From: a virus
Length of the DNA stretch: 38,141 bases
IMG/VR virus record: IMGVR_UViG_3300027917_000091
Coordinates: 1 to 38,141 of that record
Reading direction: 5' to 3' (one strand)
Position numbers and translations under genes: made by a program. Under the pieces are notes generated by a model. That model ran no database searches and was not told where the DNA came from. It saw only the letters and a list, made by a program, of their open reading frames with translations. The first letter of the stretch is position 1. Every line of letters starts with the position of its first letter. Below, piece after piece: positions 12,413 to 37,613 of the stretch.

Positions 12413-13042
12413 TTACAGCTCGAAGTATTCCTTAATTTCACTAATCAGAGGTCGTGTGGCATGTTCAAGCTGTGCCATATTTTTGGCTATCAGAACATAA
12501 TCCCAATCATTATAATGATCAAGTGCTGTTTCTGATTCATGTTTGTTATTACCATTCATTTCATGATTAGGTCTAACAACCCTGATTAGCATACTTTTAG
12601 AGCTCGTTTCAGCAACTGGTGCAATCTCTTTAAACATGTTATGAATACAATCATACTCATTAGGAAAACGCATATCTGGCGTTAATACTAAAATTTTAGT
12701 TTGACCTTTGCCATAAGTAACTAAATATTTTTCAACTTCTTTTCTATAATGATACACCCATATATCTGAATATATATTTCTAGCAACATCTGTTCCAAAC
12801 TGTTGCAAAACAAATCTACCAGTAATACCACCTAAGTGTGCAATTGGTTCATCTTTCCCTTCTTCATCTGTTAAATTATGCATTGGAATATCAAATACAT
12901 GGCTACAAATTTCCTTCAACTTATCGGCAAAACGAAATACACCACCCATAGTATGTGTTAAAATTTCTTTCCCGATCAAATTACATACAGAATCCTTTCC
13001 ATGCCCCGCCTTCCCAGACACCCCTATAATTAGTGCTTTCAT
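12413..13042 (-). CDS. Deoxynucleoside monophosphate kinase
   Basis: 209 aa. The N-terminal P-loop GVSGKAGHGKDS and the downstream layout (FRFADKLKEICSHVF; VLTPDMRFPNEYD; LIRVVRPNHEMNGN) match phage dNMP kinases of the T4 gp1 type, which convert dNMPs to dNDPs for DNA synthesis. The ATG at 13042 is preferred over the TTG at 13045 because it lies in TGATG overlapping the previous stop, with GGAG 7 nt before it. It pairs logically with the nucleotidase, dUTPase and replication genes nearby. Confidence 0.85.
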   Translation of the reverse strand: MKALIIGVSGKAGHGKDSVCNLIGKEILTHTMGGVFRFADKLKEICSHVFDIPMHNLTDEEGKDEPIAHLGGITGRFVLQQFGTDVARNIYSDIWVYHYRKEVEKYLVTYGKGQTKILVLTPDMRFPNEYDCIHNMFKEIAPVAETSSKSMLIRVVRPNHEMNGNNKHESETALDHYNDWDYVLIAKNMAQLEHATRPLISEIKEYFEL

Positions 13043-13602
13043 CAAAATTCTCCATTTAAGACACGGTCAACGAATTTACCGAAATGTGGAACCCTAGTTA
13101 CGGCACCATCAAAAGGGCCGTCAGGGCCATTCTTATTATATTTATAATCTATAACGACAACATTCTTGCCATAATGTAATAATTCATGTATTTGTTCAGG
13201 GCTGTCTTCTACATAAACATCACAATCAACAGCCCATTTTTGCTGAGTAAAATGTATACCATCATAATTCAATTTGTGCTGATGCATCCATTGTAATGCG
13301 TAAACTTCTGTATTAGAATTTGGCTGATGCGTTATAATCTCAACTGTATCTGTTTTTGCTATGGTATTAAGTTCCTTGGTGTATTTAAATATTGGGGCTG
13401 TTAGGTAAATTTCTTTAGTATGGAGAGAATTAAAGAAAAAATCGTAGATATCATCGCCTATAGAAAAATTGTCACTTAATAAATAACTATTCCACTCTTG
13501 AACTGGGCGACACCACTCGTTTGGAAACGTTTTTAAATAAACTTCAACCAACTTATTGTAAGTGTTTCTTAAAACACCATCGATATCAATTCCGATTCTC
13601 AT
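13042..13602 (-). CDS. HAD-family 5'-nucleotidase-like phosphatase
   Basis: 186 aa. It opens MRIGIDIDGVLRN, the DxDGx motif of HAD phosphohydrolases. EIITHQPNSNTE gives motif II and CDVYVEDSPEQIHEL the acidic motif IV. Cap and length fit a deoxyribonucleotidase (NT5C-like) that adjusts nucleotide pools, though other small phosphatases are possible. It overlaps both neighbours (4 nt with the kinase, 17 nt with the HD-GYP gene). Confidence 0.8.
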   Translation of the reverse strand: MRIGIDIDGVLRNTYNKLVEVYLKTFPNEWCRPVQEWNSYLLSDNFSIGDDIYDFFFNSLHTKEIYLTAPIFKYTKELNTIAKTDTVEIITHQPNSNTEVYALQWMHQHKLNYDGIHFTQQKWAVDCDVYVEDSPEQIHELLHYGKNVVVIDYKYNKNGPDGPFDGAVTRVPHFGKFVDRVLNGEF

Positions 13603-14287
13603 TATTTACCTCTTTGTAAACTCCATAGACTTCGGGATCATTGTACAAACTTTGAAAACGCTCCGTCTCCAATGCTTGTAAAAACAGCTTAACTATATCA
13701 GGATCAAACATTCTTCCGCTTTGTTTAACTATAAAATTAGATGCTGATTGCTCGTCCCACAATTCTTTATAACCACGAAAGGCGACAAGGGCATCGAATA
13801 CATCTGCAACGTGAATTATCCTTGCAAAAAGATGAATATCTCTACCCTTCAAGCCATTTGGATATCCTTTGCCATCCCAGCATTCATGATGCTGTTCAGT
13901 GACTAAGGACTCTATCTTGAAAAAGGGGGCCACTTTGAGTATGTTCGCACCGTATGTCGGGTGACCCCTTATAAACTTACGCTCTTTTGGCGACAGTTTC
14001 CTATCCGACAATATTATATCAGATGCGACTCCAACTTTTCCAATATCATGTAAAAGACCACAACGCCATAAAGACGTCAATTCTCTTTCAGGCAAACCAA
14101 GCATCTTTCCCATAAGATGAGATATAGTGCCAACCCTATCAGAGTGTCGTGCAGTATGTATAGAATGCTCATGAACTTCAATAACACGTAAAAATGCAAT
14201 CATCATAATAGTTCGCCGTGTGTCGTATTCAGCTTGTTTTTGCTTTCTATCTTGTTCTAACATTATATTATGCAGATCGTCCTTCAT
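13586..14287 (-). CDS. HD-GYP cyclic-dinucleotide phosphodiesterase
   Basis: 233 aa. The catalytic HD pair is in LLHDIGKVG (His80, Asp81). The diagnostic HHE-x2-DGKGYP follows (His133, His134, Glu135, GYP 140-142), and HVADVFDALVAFRGYK completes the domain. All key residues are present, so the enzyme is probably active against c-di-GMP or 3'3'-cGAMP. There is no sensory or receiver domain. In a phage this could lower host c-di-GMP or remove a CBASS second messenger. It sits between the replication genes and the nucleotidase, so early expression is likely. Confidence 0.88.
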   Translation of the reverse strand: MKDDLHNIMLEQDRKQKQAEYDTRRTIMMIAFLRVIEVHEHSIHTARHSDRVGTISHLMGKMLGLPERELTSLWRCGLLHDIGKVGVASDIILSDRKLSPKERKFIRGHPTYGANILKVAPFFKIESLVTEQHHECWDGKGYPNGLKGRDIHLFARIIHVADVFDALVAFRGYKELWDEQSASNFIVKQSGRMFDPDIVKLFLQALETERFQSLYNDPEVYGVYKEVNNENRN

Positions 14288-14753
14288 TTTTTCTCATCGA
14301 GTTAACTAGGCAAATGCCTACATCAATAGATTTCTGGAGAACTTCATACTTGTACTTGTACGTAAAAAGCTCTTTTTGTTTATCATGTAATTCTGCTGTC
14401 GCTTTTTCAATTTTTCCTTCATAATTCGCAATGTCTGCTTTGCAGATATGCTCTTCTACCCAAGCGAACATCAAATCTTTACTTCTCTTGTAATAATTTG
14501 GGATTCTATCAAAAGACTTCGTTAGATGATAATTAACGAGATGATTTTTCTTTGTACGCAAAACATTAATATTAGATTCAATTGCACTAACTTCTACTTC
14601 TAAATCAGCTAAAAACTGGGCATTCCACGCAAGAAGGTTAATCTTTGTTATAAGCCTGTCCTGTAAGACTTTGATAATATCCTCTGAGGCGACTAGACCA
14701 GCCGCCTCTGGATATTCATATTGTGCTAAATCAGACCATTTTCTATCAGCCAT
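14268..14753 (-). CDS. Coiled-coil protein, paralogue of 30070-30534
   Basis: 161 aa, almost all helix with heptad-like runs (LADLEVEVSAIESNINVLR; KIEKATAELHDKQKELF). The segment FDRIPNYYKRSKDLMFAW aligns with FEKIPPKQQKNRDLQLGW in the 154-aa protein at 30070-30534, and both end in a long helix of similar phase. They are therefore two copies of one family. Function unknown; it lies between SSB and the HD-GYP enzyme. Confidence 0.7.
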   Translation of the reverse strand: MADRKWSDLAQYEYPEAAGLVASEDIIKVLQDRLITKINLLAWNAQFLADLEVEVSAIESNINVLRTKKNHLVNYHLTKSFDRIPNYYKRSKDLMFAWVEEHICKADIANYEGKIEKATAELHDKQKELFTYKYKYEVLQKSIDVGICLVNSMRKNEGRSA

Positions 14754-14762
14754 TAGTTCCTC

Positions 14763-15173
14763 TTAAAATGGGAGATCGTCCTTTTCTTCCTTCGGCTGTT
14801 CGGGTGGCGGAGATTCTTGCTCGCCGTCTTTTGAGACACGACCTTCACCGAAATCAATATTCTGAGCCAAAACATACATACGATAACGCATCTGTTTAGT
14901 CTCTTTATCTTCCCATTTCTTTTCAGCGAGTCTGCCAACAACCTTAACCTCTGTGCCTTTTTTAGCCAGATTAGCAACACGATCAGCGAGGTTTTTCCAC
15001 GCAGTTACAGGAACCCACGTAGTTTCCTCGTTAAAACCCTTTTCGCCATCACCTTTTGGATAATACCTAGAGACAGCAATTGAAAAGTTACATACTGAAT
15101 CGCCGTTTCCAGTAACGGATAATTCTGGATCTCTACCTAAACGACCGATTCCAATCCACAAATTCTCATTCAT
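14763..15173 (-). CDS. ssb: Single-stranded DNA-binding protein
   Basis: 136-aa bacterial-type SSB. The OB fold is recognisable from WIGIGRLGRDPELSV, VCNFSIAVSRYY, TTWVPVTAWKNLADRVA and VKVVGRLAEKKWED. A Pro/Glu-rich linker leads to the acidic tip KDDLPF, the usual partner-binding tail. It protects ssDNA and would recruit the helicase and nuclease partners encoded beside it. The second ATG (15173) has better spacing from GGAG than 15176. Confidence 0.95.
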   Translation of the reverse strand: MNENLWIGIGRLGRDPELSVTGNGDSVCNFSIAVSRYYPKGDGEKGFNEETTWVPVTAWKNLADRVANLAKKGTEVKVVGRLAEKKWEDKETKQMRYRMYVLAQNIDFGEGRVSKDGEQESPPPEQPKEEKDDLPF

Positions 15174-16584
15174 CATAAACTCCTTCGATAAGTTCTTCCT
15201 TTGCTAAGTTCTCAAAACGTCCTACGTCCTTCTGAAAAATGGTCTTCGCTGACCCCGTATCGGCGTTCCTTGCCTTTCCTACAATTATTTCTGCTTGACC
15301 AGTACTCGGAGACCCATCGGCAAACGTCTCTATTCCGTAATATTCTGGTCTGTAAATAAATAAAATAATGTCGGCGTCCTGTTCTAAAGTACCAGAGTCC
15401 CTCAAATCTGACATCACTGGTCGGGGAACAGTTCTTGATTCTACCGCCCTCGATAACTGTGACAATGCGAGAACTGGTATCTTAAGCTCTTTAGCCAATG
15501 CCTTTAACGCCTTTGAAATACTTGATATCTCTTGCTGTCTGTTCTCCTTTCGTAAGCTACAATCTAAAAGTTGTAAATAATCTATTATTAAAAGTTTTAT
15601 ATCATGATTACCAACCATTCTTCTTGCTATGCCACGCAAATTAATCTCATTTAATGGTGTCTGATCATTAATAAAGAGCGGTTGTTTATTTATTTCTTTC
15701 CAAGTTTTAGCTAAGAAATCAAACTCAGGTTGAGTAACCTGTCCCGATCTAATACGAAGTCCATTTATCTTAGATACAGAACTGAGCTGTCTTAAAAATA
15801 TTCCTTCGGATGCCATTTCTAAAGATATAATGCCCACAGCCCTGTCCTTCTTTATATTATTACGGGCAAACTGTAGAGCGAGGGCGGTCTTCCCCATGCT
15901 CGGTCTGGCAGCTAGATATATTAAATCACCAGCCTCAAACCCGCCAAGACATCGATCTATATCTCTAAGACCCGTATCAGCTATAAATGGTGGCATACCG
16001 TTATCTTTTATATCTTTTAATTTCTTCATGTAATTAACGCCAATATCACCTAACGAAAAGGTGGTATTCAGCGACTCACTACGCTGAGCTATGGTAAAAA
16101 GTTCAGATTCTATCTCATCAATAGTACCTTTAACAGTACCTAATTCAGCACGTTTTACTTTATCTATGGAATTGTTAAGTGATAAAGAAACCTCACGTTG
16201 GAGAAATTTTTCTTCTAGGTGCGCCTGATAGGATTCAAAATTTGCGGGATTGATATCAGCTATATTTAAAATAACATCAACTTCATTAAAAGAATACTGT
16301 TTGTAAGGAAAGTTTGAACTCATTATTTTAGATTTCACATTAATAGGGTCTACTGGTTTACCATCACGGTAAAGACCCAACATGCTGTCAAATATGAGTC
16401 CTCTGTTAGCAGAAGAAAACCACTCTTTGGTTACGTTTATCATTTGATCCATATTCTTCGGGTTTCCTAGGATTGCTCCAAGAAACCCATATTCAATAAT
16501 TTCCAGTTCATTCGTTTTTTCCAACCACGCCCCCAGCTCTTGAAAGGAATTCAGACAGGCTGTTCCTGTCCTCGTCAGTAACAT
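15166..16584 (-). CDS. dnaB: Replicative DNA helicase, DnaB-like
   Basis: 472 aa. The N-terminal domain begins about residue 26 (LEIIEYGFLGAILGNP). The RecA-like C-domain carries Walker A AARPSMGKTALALQF (about 225-239), KLLIIDYLQLL as Walker B, and LALSQLSRAVE followed by DLRDSGTLEQDADII, all typical of DnaB. It unwinds the fork. The first 20 residues (MLLTRTGTACLNSFQELGAW) overlap the previous gene by 77 nt and are not DnaB-like, so a later non-ATG start such as TTG near 16522 is possible. Confidence 0.93.
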   Translation of the reverse strand: MLLTRTGTACLNSFQELGAWLEKTNELEIIEYGFLGAILGNPKNMDQMINVTKEWFSSANRGLIFDSMLGLYRDGKPVDPINVKSKIMSSNFPYKQYSFNEVDVILNIADINPANFESYQAHLEEKFLQREVSLSLNNSIDKVKRAELGTVKGTIDEIESELFTIAQRSESLNTTFSLGDIGVNYMKKLKDIKDNGMPPFIADTGLRDIDRCLGGFEAGDLIYLAARPSMGKTALALQFARNNIKKDRAVGIISLEMASEGIFLRQLSSVSKINGLRIRSGQVTQPEFDFLAKTWKEINKQPLFINDQTPLNEINLRGIARRMVGNHDIKLLIIDYLQLLDCSLRKENRQQEISSISKALKALAKELKIPVLALSQLSRAVESRTVPRPVMSDLRDSGTLEQDADIILFIYRPEYYGIETFADGSPSTGQAEIIVGKARNADTGSAKTIFQKDVGRFENLAKEELIEGVYDE

Positions 16585-17038
16585 TAACCACAGTAACTTC
16601 TTTTTGTTTCCGTTGGCGTCGTTCTTCCCTTGTTAAGAGGTGGGCGGGCAGTGTATTAATCGTATGCCCAGCGGCGAGCAACTTTTCACGATCACCACCA
16701 CTCGGCAATCTGTGTTTCTCTGGATCATACGATTTTATCCATCCTTCGCTTCTGAAAGCACCTTCAATAAAACCTACATTGTGCTTACCGTCCCGTTTTT
16801 GTATATTACTCACAACATAATAAATATAACCCAAATCATATTTATTTTTATGCAACCATTTGTTTATTAGTGACCAATAGCCACCAAAACTACGTTTTCC
16901 TTGATATTTTTTAGGCACACCAAGAATCTCAGTTAACATATCATTTAGTTGATTCTTAGCATATTTAGCATCAGACTCATTATACTCCATAATATCCTTT
17001 ATTTCTTTAGTATTTTTTAATATATCTTTGAGCAACAT
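16508..17038 (-). CDS. Putative replication-associated protein upstream of dnaB
   Basis: 176 aa, charged, with a winged-helix-like first half (YNESDAKYAKNQLNDML, KKYQGKRSFGGYWSLINKWL) and a polar tail. Its position just before and overlapping dnaB suggests a helicase loader or origin-binding protein. No Walker motif is visible, so it is not a DnaC-type loader. The function is inferred from context only. Confidence 0.55.
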   Translation of the reverse strand: MLLKDILKNTKEIKDIMEYNESDAKYAKNQLNDMLTEILGVPKKYQGKRSFGGYWSLINKWLHKNKYDLGYIYYVVSNIQKRDGKHNVGFIEGAFRSEGWIKSYDPEKHRLPSGGDREKLLAAGHTINTLPAHLLTREERRQRKQKEVTVVNVTDEDRNSLSEFLSRAGGVVGKNE

Positions 17039-18485: not shown

Positions 18486-18649
18486 TACATTCTTTCAATT
18501 AAAATAGTAATAAGCACAGCAAGCATAAAGATTCCCGCTGGTATAAATAGTACCATAAGACCTATAATAAGTCTTGATAAAAAACACAACCAACGGCTCT
18601 CACAGCGGGGGCTACAAACATCATTAACCCACTTTTCAATCGCTTTCAT
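18485..18649 (-). CDS. Small membrane protein (54 aa)
   Basis: Starts MKAIEKWVNDVCSPRCESRW, then one long hydrophobic helix (LIIGLMVLFIPAGIFMLAVL), ending IERM. AAGG lies 6-7 nt before the ATG. The start overlaps the formyltransferase stop and the stop shares a base with the SbcD-like ATG, so translation is coupled. One of several short single-helix proteins in this window; function unknown. Confidence 0.7.
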   Translation of the reverse strand: MKAIEKWVNDVCSPRCESRWLCFLSRLIIGLMVLFIPAGIFMLAVLITILIERM

Positions 18650-19316
18650 AACTAGCCTTCTCAACTAAACGTTGAAATCTATTTAATAAATGAATTTCTG
18701 CTTGTCTTGGCATTCTCATATGCAACTCACCCCACCTCTCTCCAGCTATAAGATCGTTTAAGGGGTGTACACCATGGCGGAACAATTCTATTGAATCAAT
18801 CAATAGCTCTATTTCTTTTTCATAAACTCTCTGAGCGAGGGCATGGAAAGTATCATTCGGGTAGACAGGAACAATCTCACGTTCAATTAACTCTCCAGCA
18901 TCGGGTTCTTTATTTATAATATGAGTGGTAACCCCAATTGGCTGACCTTCATATATTGCCCATTTGAGAGCATCTAAACCACGAACATTTGGAAGATATC
19001 CTGGGTGAGCATTAATAACTTTTCCGCATGTTGTCCACGGTTCACCCAAAATACCAGCACCACCGATTAAGTATAAATCACAATAAGCTTCTGTTTTATC
19101 GTTAAGCTCAGCAACATTATAGTTAAAATTTCTGGCAACAGCATCTGGATCGCCAATAATATTTTTCGGTCTGTGTTCATATAGTGGTTTAAAAGATTTT
19201 TTTTCTTCCCATGGCTTTACAAAAATAATAACATCATGATAACCAAATGTCTTTAATGCACACAATAGATCATACGTCTTTCGATGCGGATGATCATAAG
19301 TTAAAACACCTATCAT
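18636..19316 (-). CDS. Formyltransferase-family protein
   Basis: 226 aa. The catalytic triad of N10-formyl-THF-dependent formyltransferases is present: Asn102 and His104 in KVINAHPGYLPNVRG, Asp139 in GVTTHIINKEPDAGELI. It is shorter than methionyl-tRNA formyltransferase and lacks its C-terminal tRNA-binding domain, so a sugar N-formyltransferase or PurN-like activity is more likely. The WlbA-like and SDR-like genes elsewhere in the window favour a nucleotide-sugar substrate. The presence of an initiator tRNA gene makes a Met-tRNA role worth noting, but the sequence does not favour it. Confidence 0.8.
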   Translation of the reverse strand: MIGVLTYDHPHRKTYDLLCALKTFGYHDVIIFVKPWEEKKSFKPLYEHRPKNIIGDPDAVARNFNYNVAELNDKTEAYCDLYLIGGAGILGEPWTTCGKVINAHPGYLPNVRGLDALKWAIYEGQPIGVTTHIINKEPDAGELIEREIVPVYPNDTFHALAQRVYEKEIELLIDSIELFRHGVHPLNDLIAGERWGELHMRMPRQAEIHLLNRFQRLVEKASYESD

Positions 19317-19561: not shown

Positions 19562-19748
19562 ACTGTTCCTCCGATACTATACTTATTGGATACCTTTTGT
19601 AATTACGCAAATAATCGATAGCACCTAAAACACCATTTCCAGCAGTTCCGTTCTTAACAAAATACAAACCAAGCTTAGTTTTAAGTGCGGTAGAATTACG
19701 AAAAATAAAATCAACGGCACTCTCTTCTGTCCATTTCTTCTGACTCAT
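19548..19748 (-). CDS. Small hypothetical protein (66 aa)
   Basis: MSQKKWTEESAVDFIFRN at the start, then LGLYFVKNGTAGNGVLGAI. The ATG at 19748 is chosen over 19754 because AAAGG is 8 nt away. Overlaps the GIY-YIG gene end and the next start. No family recognised. Confidence 0.6.
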   Translation of the reverse strand: MSQKKWTEESAVDFIFRNSTALKTKLGLYFVKNGTAGNGVLGAIDYLRNYKRYPISIVSEEQFENL

Positions 19749-20427
19749 TATCATTACCTTTATATCTTATATAGTGCTTGTTCTCACCTTTAATTCTTTC
19801 TTTAAACCATTTTTTAGGAATTTCTTCTTCTTCACGTTCTTTTTTTACAATTTCCCACGCATCATCAGTTTCTTGACCCAACATTCTTCTTCTTGATTTA
19901 ATAAATGATTCATTATTATATTTTGGATTTAATTTTAATATAAACTGTCTTTCTATTTCAATCATTTTATCTTGTGCAACAAGTGTGTAAAAAACTCTAT
20001 CAAACTTTTTATATTTAACATGTTCATACAATCTAGCATTAAGATTTACGGTTTGACCAACATATACAACTTTACCTTTATCAACTAAAAAATAGACACA
20101 TGGACTCATGGCCATATTATCGGATTCATATAAACATGGAATATCTTTTAATTCTATCGGTAAATGTCTTGGAACCTTAGAATTATGTAATTTATATATA
20201 TTATAATTTATCGGAATATCACAACCATCTTTAACCCAATATAAATTATTTTCAGCCCATTTTTTTACATCAGATTTTTTAAATTTAACCTCACCATTAA
20301 CAACATTCATTATATGTGGAATACAGTTACTTTCCACAAATCTTACTACATATTCTTCGTCAATATTTAAATATTCAGCAACATCATTAACAGACATATT
20401 ATGACCAATTGGTACAATTTTAGACAT
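19711..20427 (-). CDS. GIY-YIG endonuclease with N-terminal HTH
   Basis: 238 aa. Residues about 8-60 resemble an excisionase/MerR-type HTH (MSVNDVAEYLNIDEEYVVRF; VKFKKSDVKKWAEN). The GIY-YIG core follows near residue 108: CVYFLVDKGKVVYVGQTVNL, with NARLYEH and the Glu of EIERQFIL. The tail is basic. It could be a homing endonuclease or a nicking or processing nuclease. It overlaps the dUTPase stop by 1 nt. Confidence 0.85.
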   Translation of the reverse strand: MSKIVPIGHNMSVNDVAEYLNIDEEYVVRFVESNCIPHIMNVVNGEVKFKKSDVKKWAENNLYWVKDGCDIPINYNIYKLHNSKVPRHLPIELKDIPCLYESDNMAMSPCVYFLVDKGKVVYVGQTVNLNARLYEHVKYKKFDRVFYTLVAQDKMIEIERQFILKLNPKYNNESFIKSRRRMLGQETDDAWEIVKKEREEEEIPKKWFKERIKGENKHYIRYKGNDNESEEMDRRECR

Positions 20428-21806: not shown

Positions 21807-22159
21807 AATGTACTCGCTGTGCTTGATGTTATAGACGTTGTGGTATAACCACTAGTAGTAGTTTTTACTTTATTCAAATCAGTTCTCAATCTACCATCCA
21901 TGGACATATATGGGCTTTTCATTTTTGGATCTCTTATAAATATACTATCTATTTTATAGGCAAACAAAGAATCCTTTTTACCCCTATTGAACAACGGATA
22001 GCGAAAATGTCCTCTCAATGCCGCCTCGGCTTCTTTGGCGGATACCCCCATAGCATTGATTGCACCACTCATTTGCTTAGTGGCTTCCGAAGCACTCAAG
22101 GCTCCGATGGCAATTCCCCTAAACACATCGCCTATACTACCTAGTAAATTACCGATCAT
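21803..22159 (-). CDS. SLF-motif protein with Ser/Thr tail
   Basis: 118 aa in three parts: an Ala/Gly-rich N-terminal helix region (SEATKQMSGAINAMGVSAKE), a middle with NRGKKDSLFAYKIDSIF (motif present, with a second D-S-I-F copy), and a C-terminal tail TTTSGYTTTSITSSTASTL. The tail recalls those of 6644-6847 and 35644-36162. It is not membrane-spanning by composition. Function unknown. Confidence 0.6.
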   Translation of the reverse strand: MIGNLLGSIGDVFRGIAIGALSASEATKQMSGAINAMGVSAKEAEAALRGHFRYPLFNRGKKDSLFAYKIDSIFIRDPKMKSPYMSMDGRLRTDLNKVKTTTSGYTTTSITSSTASTL

Positions 22160-23001
22160 ACTGGCTCAAAATTAAGTAAAAATCGTTTTAAAGCAAGATC
22201 CCACCAATCCATCTTATCCAATCTGACAACTTGTAGGTTCTTATTTTCTAACAAGATGTTTTCGGGGTAGTTCCCAATATTCCTCTTAATCGGTATGATG
22301 CTGGCTGGTAATCGTAATTCCTCTGCTATTAGCAATGCTAAATCATAATAGCTACAGTCACCTAAAGCAGAAACATGATAAGTTCCATATTCCCCGCTAC
22401 CCAATATATATGATATCTGTTTTGCTATTTGTAGTGTCCATGTTGGGCAAATTCGTAAATTTGTTGGCATTTCTAACTTTTCTTCCTTCTTGCCTTTATC
22501 TATAATATTTAATACTAAGTTTGTTCGTGAATTTCTCTGTTCGTGAATCCCGTACACTGACGCTGTGCGAACAATATAATGCTTTTCGTATGCCCTCTTT
22601 ATTAGGCTTTCGCCAGCGAGCATAGAAATACCGTGTATTGTAAGAGGGTCTGTTGGCTCATCTTCGATCACATATTGATTTTTATAACCACTATAAACAT
22701 GACCAGTACTAAAATGTAAAAATTCTGCATCAAATTCCTTAGCTAACAACGCTAGGTTCTGAGCACCAACACCATTGACGTGAAGAGCCCACATAGTATC
22801 GCCCATACAACTATCATAATCTAAACCAGCACAATTAATAATAATGTCTGGTTTAAATTCTCTTACACTCTCAAAACTTGTTTGATCAGTTATTTCAATA
22901 TCTTCATGAGCTAATGGTAAAACTTCATGACTCTTCTTAAGATAATATTTAACTAACTCTGCGCCAATCATGCCAGAAGCACCAGTAATCGCTATTTTCA
23001 T
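22156..23001 (-). CDS. SDR/RmlD-like protein, catalytic Tyr and Lys replaced
   Basis: 281 aa. It starts MKIAITGASGMIGAELVKYY, the NAD(P)-binding GxxGxxG of extended SDRs, with IINCAGLDYDS and FLHFSTGHVYSGY as in RmlD (dTDP-4-dehydrorhamnose reductase) and the MAT2B subunit. Where those have Y-G-x-x-K this protein has H-G-I-S-M, so the usual Tyr and Lys are both missing and classic reductase activity is doubtful. The ATG at 23001 is preferred because it overlaps the previous stop (ATGA); 23028 would extend into that gene. Confidence 0.8.
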   Translation of the reverse strand: MKIAITGASGMIGAELVKYYLKKSHEVLPLAHEDIEITDQTSFESVREFKPDIIINCAGLDYDSCMGDTMWALHVNGVGAQNLALLAKEFDAEFLHFSTGHVYSGYKNQYVIEDEPTDPLTIHGISMLAGESLIKRAYEKHYIVRTASVYGIHEQRNSRTNLVLNIIDKGKKEEKLEMPTNLRICPTWTLQIAKQISYILGSGEYGTYHVSALGDCSYYDLALLIAEELRLPASIIPIKRNIGNYPENILLENKNLQVVRLDKMDWWDLALKRFLLNFEPV

Positions 23002-23399
23002 GTAACCGCCCAACTTAATTCTAACCATCTATTACCAACTATTGGATGCGGATTTGGATCACTAATAGCCTGAACAAAATCTGTTTCTTGATGAACATTT
23101 ATACTTTGTATATACATTCTGCTATTAAGACCATATCCACGAAAAGTTAATTCATATTCTTGAAACCACGAAAGTTCAAAGTTTGGCTCCTGTACTTCCA
23201 GCTCATTTAAATAAAGAGTACAGCTACAAGAAGCCCCGCTACTTTCCACAGAATAATCAAAATTTTTAAAATTTAATTTAAAATTGAATTGTTCTTTATG
23301 ATGTTTTAAATTAATGCCCAATTTATCGCCAAGTATGACAAATTCACCTATAGGTTTTGGCGGCCCAGGGGCAAGAATAGTTTGTGTTTTTTTATGCAT
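22998..23399 (-). CDS. Hypothetical protein behind a leaderless-type promoter
   Basis: 133 aa, beta-rich (FNFKLNFKNFDYSVESSGAS; FELSWFQEYELTFRGYGL). N-terminus MHKKTQTILAPGPPKP. A strong promoter places its -10 box 6 nt before the ATG, and there is no Shine-Dalgarno sequence, so the message should be leaderless. It is first in a minus-strand unit with the SDR-like gene. Possibly a virion or surface-binding domain; not recognised. Confidence 0.65.
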   Translation of the reverse strand: MHKKTQTILAPGPPKPIGEFVILGDKLGINLKHHKEQFNFKLNFKNFDYSVESSGASCSCTLYLNELEVQEPNFELSWFQEYELTFRGYGLNSRMYIQSINVHQETDFVQAISDPNPHPIVGNRWLELSWAVT

Positions 23400-23528: not shown

Positions 23529-23602
23529 TGCGGGGTGGAGCAGTTTGGTAGCTCGCTAGGCTCATAACCTAGAGGTCGCTAGTTCAAATCTAGTCCCCGC
23601 AA
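23529..23602 (+). tRNA. Initiator-type tRNA-fMet (CAT)
   Basis: All four arms fold, with anticodon CAT at 23563-23565. Initiator marks are present: the body GGGGTGGAGCAG.TTGGTAGCTC closely follows bacterial tRNA-fMet, the D-stem has A11:U24, and position 1:72 is a weak U:A pair instead of the strong pair of elongators. The anticodon stem has two of the three G:C pairs, with A29:U41 replacing the third. CCA is not encoded. The discriminator A is followed by CT and then the ATG of the next ORF. Confidence 0.93.
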
Positions 23603-23604
23603 CT

Positions 23605-27418: not shown

Positions 27419-27420
27419 AG

Positions 27421-27493
27421 AGCCGCTAGGACGATTCGAACGCCCGACATATTGCTTACAAGGCAATTACTCTACCAACTGAGTTATAGCGGC
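27421..27493 (-). tRNA. tRNA-Thr (TGT)
   Basis: Complete cloverleaf on the minus strand: acceptor GCCGCTA with TAGCGGC, anticodon TGT at 27458-27460, T-arm GGGCGTTCGAATCGTCC. Discriminator U, no encoded CCA. It lies at the 3' end of a structured RNA and is followed by CT and the ATG of the next gene. Confidence 0.95.
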
Positions 27494-27989: not shown

Positions 27990-28490
27990 CTATTTTTTCC
28001 AAAGAACATGTTTTATTTCTTTCAACTTAGCAGTCTCAATTAAAGTAATCTTGTCTGCTCTGCCTCGGCGTTGATATACTTTGTACTTCGCTTCTTCCGC
28101 AGAGTTCACTAAAATATCAGAGTTCACATATTTGTTAACCAGTTTAATTAGATCAGTTCTTTTTACTAAAATAAAATCTTTATCAGTTTCAAAAGCAATC
28201 ACTTTTGCTTTACCGTGTAACCATCCTTTGTCATTTTTTCTAACACCATGCAATTCAACCCAACACCATTCATCCTGTACGTATTCATCAGACCTTTTAA
28301 TTCGCTTCATTGCTTTTACATCTACACGGCAATCATTTTTAAGTAAAACGTCCCAATGCTGTGATGCATCTTCACCGCCATTGGATTTTCTTATAAAATG
28401 TCCTTTATCTATTGCTAATTTAATAAATTCACGCTCAGCACTTTCTCCTATTTCGAGGCAGTTTTTATTGTCATAAGGGTTCCTCTGCAT
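27990..28490 (-). CDS. PD-(D/E)XK-like nuclease candidate
   Basis: 166 aa. GESAEREFIKLAIDKGHFIR gives the helix with an acidic residue, HWDVLLKN the central Asp and RVDVKAMKRI the D-x-K of a restriction-endonuclease-like fold. Such small nucleases act as resolvases, restriction-like or recombination enzymes. Proposed from motif order only. Overlaps the phosphatase gene by 20 nt. Confidence 0.6.
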   Translation of the reverse strand: MQRNPYDNKNCLEIGESAEREFIKLAIDKGHFIRKSNGGEDASQHWDVLLKNDCRVDVKAMKRIKRSDEYVQDEWCWVELHGVRKNDKGWLHGKAKVIAFETDKDFILVKRTDLIKLVNKYVNSDILVNSAEEAKYKVYQRRGRADKITLIETAKLKEIKHVLWKK

Positions 28491-28950
28491 TAAGTATTTT
28501 CCTGTATATATACCTGTTATACAGCCTCATTCCCCCGACTAGCGACCTGACCCACATTTCTGGCATTCTTTCACCATTATTAATGATTTTACTCAGTGCG
28601 AGTGCGGCGGCTGGGCTACGACTTAGTCCAGCGTCACAATGTACAATTATAGGATATTGGGCGTATTTTTTAGCAAATTCAACGATATCCCTCGCCATAT
28701 CGTCCGCAAAAGGCACAATATCTTGATCTTTGAACTCTACAAAGCCTCTTCTGGCTGTAATATTCCCATCTTCATCATAATCCACATCATGACATTCTAC
28801 TTGTAATATTGCTTGTAATTTATTGTTTTCAGGTATCTTAGGAGCACCAATTTCAGGTGAAAATATAGAAATTAGAGCAAATTTCTTATATATCTGGTCT
28901 AAAGAGCCACTTTCAACCATTAAACGGTTCATTACTATAAATTCTGTCAT
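28471..28950 (-). CDS. Tyrosine/dual-specificity phosphatase
   Basis: 159 aa. The active-site loop is IIVHCDAGLSRSP, with nucleophile Cys105 and Arg111 in the C-x5-R signature, and FADDMARDIVEFA ahead of it as in DSP-like enzymes. The enzyme could remove phosphate from host Tyr/Ser/Thr proteins or RNA 5' ends. Its overlap with the WlbA-like gene (ATGA) groups it with the sugar genes. Confidence 0.85.
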   Translation of the reverse strand: MTEFIVMNRLMVESGSLDQIYKKFALISIFSPEIGAPKIPENNKLQAILQVECHDVDYDEDGNITARRGFVEFKDQDIVPFADDMARDIVEFAKKYAQYPIIVHCDAGLSRSPAAALALSKIINNGERMPEMWVRSLVGGMRLYNRYIYRKILNAEEPL

Positions 28951-29798
28951 TTACTATTCCTTATATCGTGAACTATATGAGTCGCTTCCTCAACATCCTC
29001 TGGCGTCCACCCTTCGCCCTTTAAGATTTTTTGATAACTTAGCGTGTGAAGGTCTAAAGCCGTGGATAGGTCTATAAATTCATTTTCCACTTGGAGTATT
29101 CTCATTGCCTTCCCCTTGGTAGATAATTGCCAATCGACATTAGCGTATTCGAGCTGGAGTGTACCAGTGGCAAGATCTTCCTCATTGGTCATGACGTTGA
29201 GTTTCTTGCGTTGACCAAATACATAAATCAAGATATCGAATAAATGGATACCTATGTTAGTGACCATGCCACCGCTCTTAACAACATCCCCTTTCCAGGA
29301 ATATTTATACCATAGACCACGGGGTGCATTATAATGCAGAGTAACATCTAATGGAGAATCGAGCCTTGTGACTTCTTTGCGAAGCTTTTGAATTTCTGGA
29401 TGGAGCCTTAGCTGGTGTATTACATTTATTTTTTTGTCATACTCATTTGATATTTGAATGAGGGCGTCTATGTTCCATGGCTCAATAACCAGAGGTTTCT
29501 CACAGATAGCATGAGCACCCAACCTCATGGCGAACCTTACATGAGCATCATGTAAATAGTTCGGCGAGCATATCGAAACGTAGTCGACGCCCTCACCGTT
29601 CCTTGCTAGCTTTTCGAGATGACGATCGAATCTTTCAAACTCAGTGAAGAACGAAGCCTTTGGGAAATAATTATCAAGCACCCCGACAGAATCTTTTGGA
29701 TCGAGGCAAGCTATTAGTTCCCCACCATTCTCCTTTATTGCTCTAAGATGCTTGGGAGCGACATAGCCACCAACCCCTATTAAAGCAAATCGTTTCAT
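28947..29798 (-). CDS. wlbA: WlbA/WbpB-like sugar oxidoreductase
   Basis: 283-aa Gfo/Idh/MocA enzyme. It starts MKRFALIGVGGYVAPKHLRA (NAD-binding), has DYVSICSPNYLHDAHVRF, the CEKPL motif in GAHAICEKPLVIEPW, and the downstream QLRLHPEI. These match WlbA/WbpB, the 3-dehydrogenase acting on UDP-GlcNAcA on the way to 3-amino sugars of surface glycans. The usual aminotransferase and acetyltransferase partners are not in the window. With the formyltransferase and SDR-like genes it suggests phage control of a surface sugar, or sugar decoration of the virion. Confidence 0.85.
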   Translation of the reverse strand: MKRFALIGVGGYVAPKHLRAIKENGGELIACLDPKDSVGVLDNYFPKASFFTEFERFDRHLEKLARNGEGVDYVSICSPNYLHDAHVRFAMRLGAHAICEKPLVIEPWNIDALIQISNEYDKKINVIHQLRLHPEIQKLRKEVTRLDSPLDVTLHYNAPRGLWYKYSWKGDVVKSGGMVTNIGIHLFDILIYVFGQRKKLNVMTNEEDLATGTLQLEYANVDWQLSTKGKAMRILQVENEFIDLSTALDLHTLSYQKILKGEGWTPEDVEEATHIVHDIRNSK

Positions 29799-37075: not shown

Positions 37076-37613
37076 TGTCTTGAATTATTCCAAATTTGTG
37101 AAAGTAACGGAGTGGTCTCCATTTTTTACCATTTACGTAGAATCCCCATTTGTGGTATGGTCTGGAACATAAGAGTAAAGTCCACGCTCCCCCTTTCGGG
37201 ATTTTAAGCCAATGGCGATCCTTCGCCTTTGCTCGCCAGATAGACGGCGACGAAACTGGGAATTCGCCGTTTGGAGTAACATTAGTGTATCTGCCTCTGA
37301 GGACGATGGAAATGAGATCACAGGAGTGGTCGTGGAAGGCTCTATTGTCGTCTGATCTGAACCAGTGGTGGAGACGAATCGAATAGCCGTAGAATAATAT
37401 TGTCCACCTAACCAGATAAGGATTGTCTTTCTTACCAAGTTTTTCTCTCCATCTAATTTGAAAGTTTTTAAAGGGTTTATTATGTGAAGACCCTTCATTA
37501 TAAGTCAGGCGTCGAGGAATTGAACCATCGGTCTTCCCTGATGTTCTCAGGGACGCATTTCCAGTTATGCTAACGCCCGTTCCAATACCACGGTTTTCCA
37601 TTGTAGATTTCAT
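37062..37613 (-). CDS. Cupin-like protein, start uncertain
   Basis: The conserved part is YGYSIRLHHWFRSDDNRAFH then DHSCDLISIVLRGRYTN, giving the H-x-W-x3-D-x4-H-D-H metal site of phage cupin-like proteins, with RHWLKIPKGGAWTLLLC and HKWGFYVNGKKWRPL after it. The first 40 codons run through a tRNA-like sequence (37505-37579) and are not protein-like, so translation may start later at a non-ATG codon. Substrate unknown. Confidence 0.6.
   Translation of the reverse strand: MKSTMENRGIGTGVSITGNASLRTSGKTDGSIPRRLTYNEGSSHNKPFKNFQIRWREKLGKKDNPYLVRWTILFYGYSIRLHHWFRSDDNRAFHDHSCDLISIVLRGRYTNVTPNGEFPVSSPSIWRAKAKDRHWLKIPKGGAWTLLLCSRPYHKWGFYVNGKKWRPLRYFHKFGIIQDNEYQ
37505..37579 (-). tRNA. Unusual tRNA-like gene with 9-nt anticodon loop
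   Basis: 75 nt on the minus strand. Acceptor CGGGCGT with ACGCCTG, D-arm GCAT-AACTGGAA-ATGC and anticodon stem TCCCT with AGGGA are perfect. The anticodon loop is 9 nt (or 5 nt with a 7-bp stem) and lacks U33. The T-arm has the loop TTCAATT with one bulged base in the stem. Discriminator A is followed by CT, as in the other tRNAs. It may be degenerate or non-decoding; identity cannot be assigned. Confidence 0.5.

Follow-up and report, generated by a model that had tools for sequence, protein, structure and literature searches.

The window analysed here, a 38,141-nucleotide stretch of viral DNA (positions 1 to 38,141 of IMG/VR record IMGVR_UViG_3300027917_000091), encodes a stand-alone HD-GYP protein that we predict, with a probability of roughly 0.6, to be catalytically active as a cyclic-dinucleotide phosphodiesterase and to clear a host signal from the infected cell. 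The Pfam, PDB and fold matches of the protein are all HD-GYP proteins, which supports an active enzyme; its metal ligands and GYP motif are intact, and its gene is a core gene of the phage lineage that is linked to the gene of a small helical protein. The features on which the argument rests are collected in Table 1.

Table 1. Positions in the window of the HD-GYP gene, its key codons and its neighbours.
Feature	Positions	Strand	Basis
HD-GYP phosphodiesterase gene, stand-alone, 233 aa	13586..14287	minus	Pfam, PDB, AlphaFold model, orthologues
161-aa helical-hairpin protein, candidate partner	14268..14753	minus	synteny, conservation, model
HD motif codons (His80-Asp81)	14045..14050	minus	invariant among 62 aligned HD-GYPs
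HHE..DG.GYP motif codons (His133 to Pro143)	13859..13891	minus	translation; positions invariant in alignment
His44 codon, variable eighth-metal-ligand position (PmGH Glu185)	14156..14158	minus	62-sequence alignment
SSB, next gene upstream of 161-aa protein	14763..15176	minus	phrog_44 8.9e-35
DnaB-like replicative helicase	15166..16584	minus	phrog_19 1.8e-92
NT5C-like 5′-nucleotidase, downstream of HD-GYP	13042..13602	minus	Pfam NT5C 5.4e-13
Deoxynucleoside monophosphate kinase (dNMP kinase), downstream	12413..13045	minus	phrog_139 9.3e-32

The HD-GYP gene, its phage and its neighbour

The HD-GYP reading frame begins with ATG and runs without interruption for 233 amino acids, and the plus-strand reading of the same interval is riddled with stops. 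The protein matches Pfam HD_5 with an E-value of 9.2e-32 and a score of 110.6 bits (the cut-off is 27.2 bits), and by sequence its closest PDB entries are those of V-cGAP3 (1.5e-36) and PmGH (4.6e-32). An AlphaFold2 model, for which 62 HD-GYP sequences served as the input alignment, has a mean pLDDT of 89.7 and consists of a 39-residue N-terminal helix (residues 2–40), a single HD-GYP domain and a short C-terminal tail, with no sensor domain. Among solved active enzymes, the model is most similar to PmGH (Z 24.9) and PA4781 (Z 24.4), and it matches the DvhD receptor with a Z of 24.2. The Z scores against unrelated HD proteins are about 10–12, so that the modelled fold lies far above this background and places the protein in the HD-GYP family. 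A PADLOC search returned weak similarity to the Cas3 HD superfamily (best E 3e-4) that is not meaningful.

Judged by its gene content, the contig is a genuine phage, with genes for terminase, portal, DnaB, SSB, SbcD and dNMP kinase surrounding the HD-GYP gene. The large terminase was recognized from relatives that are annotated as terminase, the portal and SbcD match phrog_2739 and phrog_100, respectively, and an amidase gene is also encoded. The order along the minus strand is SbcD, ORF 16508, DnaB, SSB, the 161-aa protein and HD-GYP, followed by the NT5C nucleotidase, the dNMP kinase, a small protein, ORF 10958, terminase and portal.

Five related IMG/VR phages share this gene order with the window (L006, L007, L008, L009 and the more distant L148), as found in scans that are pattern-based and insensitive to distant relatives, such that a single-pattern scan overlooked even 75%-identical ones. 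In all six phages, HD-GYP occupies the same locus (SSB, helical protein, HD-GYP, dNMP kinase), and although the relatives are incomplete contigs, the presence of the gene in them is firm. Phages of the clade that were recovered through their terminase each contain exactly one HD_5 match. The NT5C gene was matched in one of the five relatives (L006). A further contig, L161, was rejected as a relative because its terminase similarity is distant (23%) and it has nothing else in common with the window.

The HD-GYP proteins of the four close phages are 73–75% identical in amino acid sequence to the window copy, and that of L148 is 43% identical to it. The corresponding values are 79–83% and 60% for terminase, 65–66% and 35% for DnaB, 52–57% and 35% for SSB, and 44–48% and 32% for the dNMP kinase, so that among the close phages HD-GYP is better conserved than DnaB, SSB and the dNMP kinase. 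For the closest pair (L007 and L008), dN/dS of HD-GYP is about 0.04. Values of dN/dS above 1 obtained for DnaB, and of dN above 1 for ORF 16508, clash with the high identities, are probably due to codon-register faults and were left out. The six phage copies form a single supported clade (SH-aLRT 98), and the closest bacterial HD-GYPs that we found are about 38% identical to the phage copy. From this synteny, the identities, the low dN/dS, the single clade and the distance to bacterial proteins, sequence comparison indicates that HD-GYP has long been inherited vertically as a core gene, is subject to strong purifying selection and is no recent pickup. The preliminary description had regarded the gene as cargo, a word that does not suit a syntenic and strongly conserved gene found in six of six phages of the lineage.

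The 161-aa gene, which in every case lies directly upstream of the HD-GYP gene (co-occurrence 6/6), shares 20 bp with the start of the latter. Its product is 71–79% identical to the window copy in the four close phages and 26% identical in L148, a degree of conservation equal to that of HD-GYP. It has no match in Pfam, PHROG or GenBank phages, and a scan for it returned the five relative contigs as the sole matches. The model of this protein (pLDDT 84.6) consists mainly of two long helices (residues 24–79 and 105–156), and a Foldseek comparison with the PDB gave generic long-helix matches, none with an E-value below 0.001. Linkage, overlap and matched conservation suggest that the two proteins may act jointly. 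Equally conserved and without a family match, the 161-aa protein is a concrete new protein for study.

The same window holds several other features. ORF 16508–17038, which overlaps the DnaB start by about 77 bp, is kept in all relatives; it has no family match, and its product might load the helicase or initiate replication. In the replication region, 18636–19316 encodes a Formyltransferase-domain protein (Formyl_trans_N, phrog_9240), which three of the four close relatives share at about 60% identity. The product of 19711–20427 joins an HTH_17 DNA-binding domain to a nuclease domain of the GIY-YIG type and probably serves as a regulatory or homing-type nuclease. Sugar-metabolism genes are represented by an RmlD-like dTDP-rhamnose reductase and a Gfo/Idh/MocA oxidoreductase (22156–23028 and 28947–29798), and 28471–28950 has a weak dual-specificity phosphatase match (DSPc, under the curated cut-off; phrog_5614). 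There are three tRNA genes, for Met, Thr and Val (23529–23603, 27420–27493 and 37504–37579), with tRNA-Met on the plus strand, opposite to the neighbouring genes. Promoter-like sites in the window are at chance level (28 versus 25.3 expected), and terminator-like sites number 7 versus 3.3 ± 2.2 expected.

The catalytic centre

Residues of the phage HD-GYP protein were mapped by sequence alignment to PmGH, with residue roles taken from PMC4159591. All seven metal ligands of the H...HD...H...HH...D set are kept, with H189, H221, D222, H250, H276, H277 and D305 of PmGH corresponding to H48, H80, D81, H109, H133, H134 and D162 of the phage protein. The second-shell residues Lys84, Asp165 and Arg51 are also kept (PmGH K225, D308 and R192), as are R171 and K174, the equivalents of the guanine-contacting R314 and K317 of PmGH. 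Tyr142 of the GYP motif corresponds to Y285 and Ile151 to I294, and the loop HHExxDGxGYP...I is thus present as HHECWDGKGYP with Ile151. The seven ligands and the GYP motif are unchanged in all six phage copies.

The position of the eighth ligand is different. E185 of PmGH is the sole variable ligand of the family, and proteins with E/D-T-G at this site are predicted to be tri-metal enzymes, whereas those with Y/F are predicted to be di-metal (PMC4159591). In the phage protein E185 is replaced by His44 and D183 by Ser42, and where the tri-metal, PmGH-type subfamily has a carboxylate followed by T-G, the phage sequence reads H44-T45-A46. Nor does the window protein carry the Y or F of the di-metal type (Bellini et al. 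2014), although the cousin phage (L132/L148) has Tyr here, in a Y-T-T sequence. Among the 62 HD-GYPs, His at the E185 position is confined to the five close phage copies, and given the Tyr of the cousin phage, descent from a Y/F-type enzyme is the simplest reading for the His44 clade.

In PmGH, the E185A mutant retains some activity and the D183A mutation abolishes it (PMC4159591). The presence of His44 in place of the usual carboxylate or aromatic residue, and of Ser42 in place of the Asp on which PmGH depends, counts against an active enzyme. V-cGAP3 likewise carries Ser where PmGH has D183, and Ser42 is thus compatible with activity and does not forecast inactivity. The preliminary description had reported a complete stand-alone HD-GYP with all catalytic residues at this locus. 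Its first part is borne out jointly by the reading frame, Pfam HD_5, the PDB matches and the fold, to which we add the minus-strand orientation; its second part is right for the di-metal set and goes somewhat too far for the tri-metal set of PmGH, whose eighth ligand, E185, is His44 here.

Substrate and purpose

The known enzyme closest in sequence is V-cGAP3 (VCA0931 of Vibrio cholerae; PDB 5z7c), a 3′3′-cGAMP phosphodiesterase that shares the HS.RV, HDIGK and HHE..DG.GYP motifs with the phage protein and also has no carboxylate at the E185 position. The stretch S-I-H-T-A-R-H-S-D-R-V of the phage protein resembles S-P-Y-T-A-G-H-S-E-R-V of V-cGAP3. Unlike the phage protein, V-cGAP3 is a cellular signalling enzyme with a second, degenerate HD-GYP-like half and has Tyr at the position of His44. 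PmGH (Persephonella marina; PDB 4mcw), the best fold match, has seven of its eight metal ligands in common with the phage protein and differs from it in having a GAF domain and an E-T-G tri-iron signature, where the phage clade has H-T-A/S and no sensor domain.

We picture the phage protein as a small di-metal (Y/F-like) enzyme that probably dimerizes via its long N-terminal helix. It would be expressed with the phage replication genes, translated together with the helical partner, and hydrolyse a 3′-5′-linked cyclic dinucleotide with at least one guanine (c-di-GMP and/or 3′3′-cGAMP) to a linear product, so that the host signal would be lowered in the infected cell. The substrate choice of HD-GYPs is unreadable from sequence, and 3′3′-cGAMP preference has no reliable sequence determinant, the glutamine of PmxA not being conserved in the V-cGAPs (PMC8177086).

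As for the purpose of such an activity, we tentatively place counter-defence, that is, removal of a CBASS-type 3′3′-cGAMP or similar signal, slightly ahead of a change in c-di-GMP physiology. The resemblance to V-cGAP3 and the prediction made for HD-GYPs of jumbo phages (PMC7824862) speak for this role. Against it, counter-defence genes often lie in variable loci and are less typically core members of a replication operon. A precedent for a phage enzyme that degrades 3′3′-cGAMP is Acb1 (phage T4 57B, anti-CBASS), which may share this job with the HD-GYP protein but has an unrelated 2H phosphoesterase fold (PMC9117128); cGG is not cleaved by Acb1.

It is possible, if on balance unlikely, that no defence system is at play and that the enzyme instead reprograms the host by degrading c-di-GMP itself. 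Motility, exopolysaccharide or the display of receptors would then change during infection, which could, for instance, reduce the adsorption of other phages. The commonest HD-GYP substrate is c-di-GMP (PMC8177086), and the guanine contacts R171 and K174 are kept. Infection of E. coli by N4 requires c-di-GMP, with the phosphodiesterase PdeL protecting against N4 (PMC8669472), and Dap1 is a further precedent that connects a phage with c-di-GMP (PMC12846349). A constant host target would also fit the strict core conservation of the gene. On the other side is the best sequence match, which is to a 3′3′-cGAMP enzyme, although such a match is a weak guide to substrate.

Less probable still is an active site that has been turned to linear dinucleotides (pGpG), to a nucleotide of phage metabolism or to a replication-made end. 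We retain this alternative because of the position of the gene in the replication module, where the order DnaB, SSB, partner, HD-GYP, (NT5C), dNMP kinase is kept in all relatives including the distant cousin, and because PA4781, which is among the best fold matches, favours pGpG over c-di-GMP (PMC8177086). His44 would then be a lineage-specific change of the metal site. Against this, the protein retains the full GYP loop and the contacts to the guanine base, and it matches DatZ, a phage HD phosphohydrolase, and other HD enzymes of the nucleotidase type much more weakly than it matches HD-GYPs.

The overlapping, equally conserved and always co-occurring partner gene would also suit a non-catalytic receptor or scaffold, in which HD-GYP would control the helical partner by binding c-di-GMP or a protein, and degenerate HD-GYP receptors such as DvhD are known (PMC13090378). 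We consider this improbable, since known receptors and inactive members are missing metal ligands or the GYP tyrosine (PMC13090378, PMC4159591, PMC8177086), whereas in the six phages the seven ligands and GYP are intact and invariant.

Returning to the active phosphodiesterase, an ambitious extension, which we think unlikely, is that the helical partner and the HD-GYP with its His-modified centre make up an ancient two-gene core module, forming one complex at the replication machinery that senses or destroys a cyclic (di)nucleotide; this would be a signal-degrading phage complex of a kind not described before. An active enzyme would mean that an entire phage lineage maintains an HD-GYP tool against a bacterial cyclic-dinucleotide signal, by a route other than that of Acb1 and Apyc1, the phage enzymes already known, and the protein would be a natural tool to lower c-di-GMP or cGAMP.

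HD-GYPs in other viral sequences

The idea that phage HD-GYPs counter CBASS is already published, from a comparative analysis of jumbo phages that reported HD-GYPs and predicted a counter-nucleotide (counter-CBASS) defence role for them (PMC7824862). The jumbo-phage proteins (e.g., QDB70412.1) are likewise phage-encoded, and, as judged from their published description, the protein studied here is set apart from them by its separate lineage, its fixed partner and its position in a replication module. If it is active, this small stand-alone protein would allow a direct test of the published prediction that HD-GYPs of phages act against nucleotide-based immunity.

PHROG contains no family that matches the HD-GYP protein, and among 50,697 GenBank phage records we found no convincing phage isolate with a match. 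The matches with E-values below 0.001 comprise "Bacteriophage sp." contigs from fecal samples that have no annotation (MT83xxxx) and a sole named phage, Microcystis phage MaAM05. The MaAM05 record (L162, GenBank MW495066.1, 30655–39119) encodes secE, nusG, rplK and thioredoxin reductase and is probably a piece of bacterial DNA that was submitted under a phage name; with secE, nusG and rplK alongside, we rejected its HD-GYP as phage evidence. Many HD-GYP matches in viral collections, this record included, look bacterial, but there is next to no probability that the gene studied here is itself bacterial and owes its place to chimeric assembly or wrong binning of the contig, because phage replication and packaging genes flank it and it has the same locus and the same neighbours in six separately assembled phage contigs, a synteny that rules out bacterial contamination.

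The HHE..DG.GYP motif is no rarity in IMG/VR, where at least 119 stretches contain it. Among the matches listed, many lie in long multi-domain proteins, which may be bacterial, and others in short stand-alone proteins. One of the latter is found in a 292-kb contig (L081) together with RNA-ligase-like and uracil-DNA-glycosylase-like genes, as read from their translations. Short stand-alone HD-GYPs in six other viral contigs (L054, L056, L058, L060, L074 and L076) form a separate supported clade in which the first-ligand motif carries an HH doublet (e.g., REPYDHHGDRV and RDNYNHHASRV), and are possibly another viral HD-GYP lineage.
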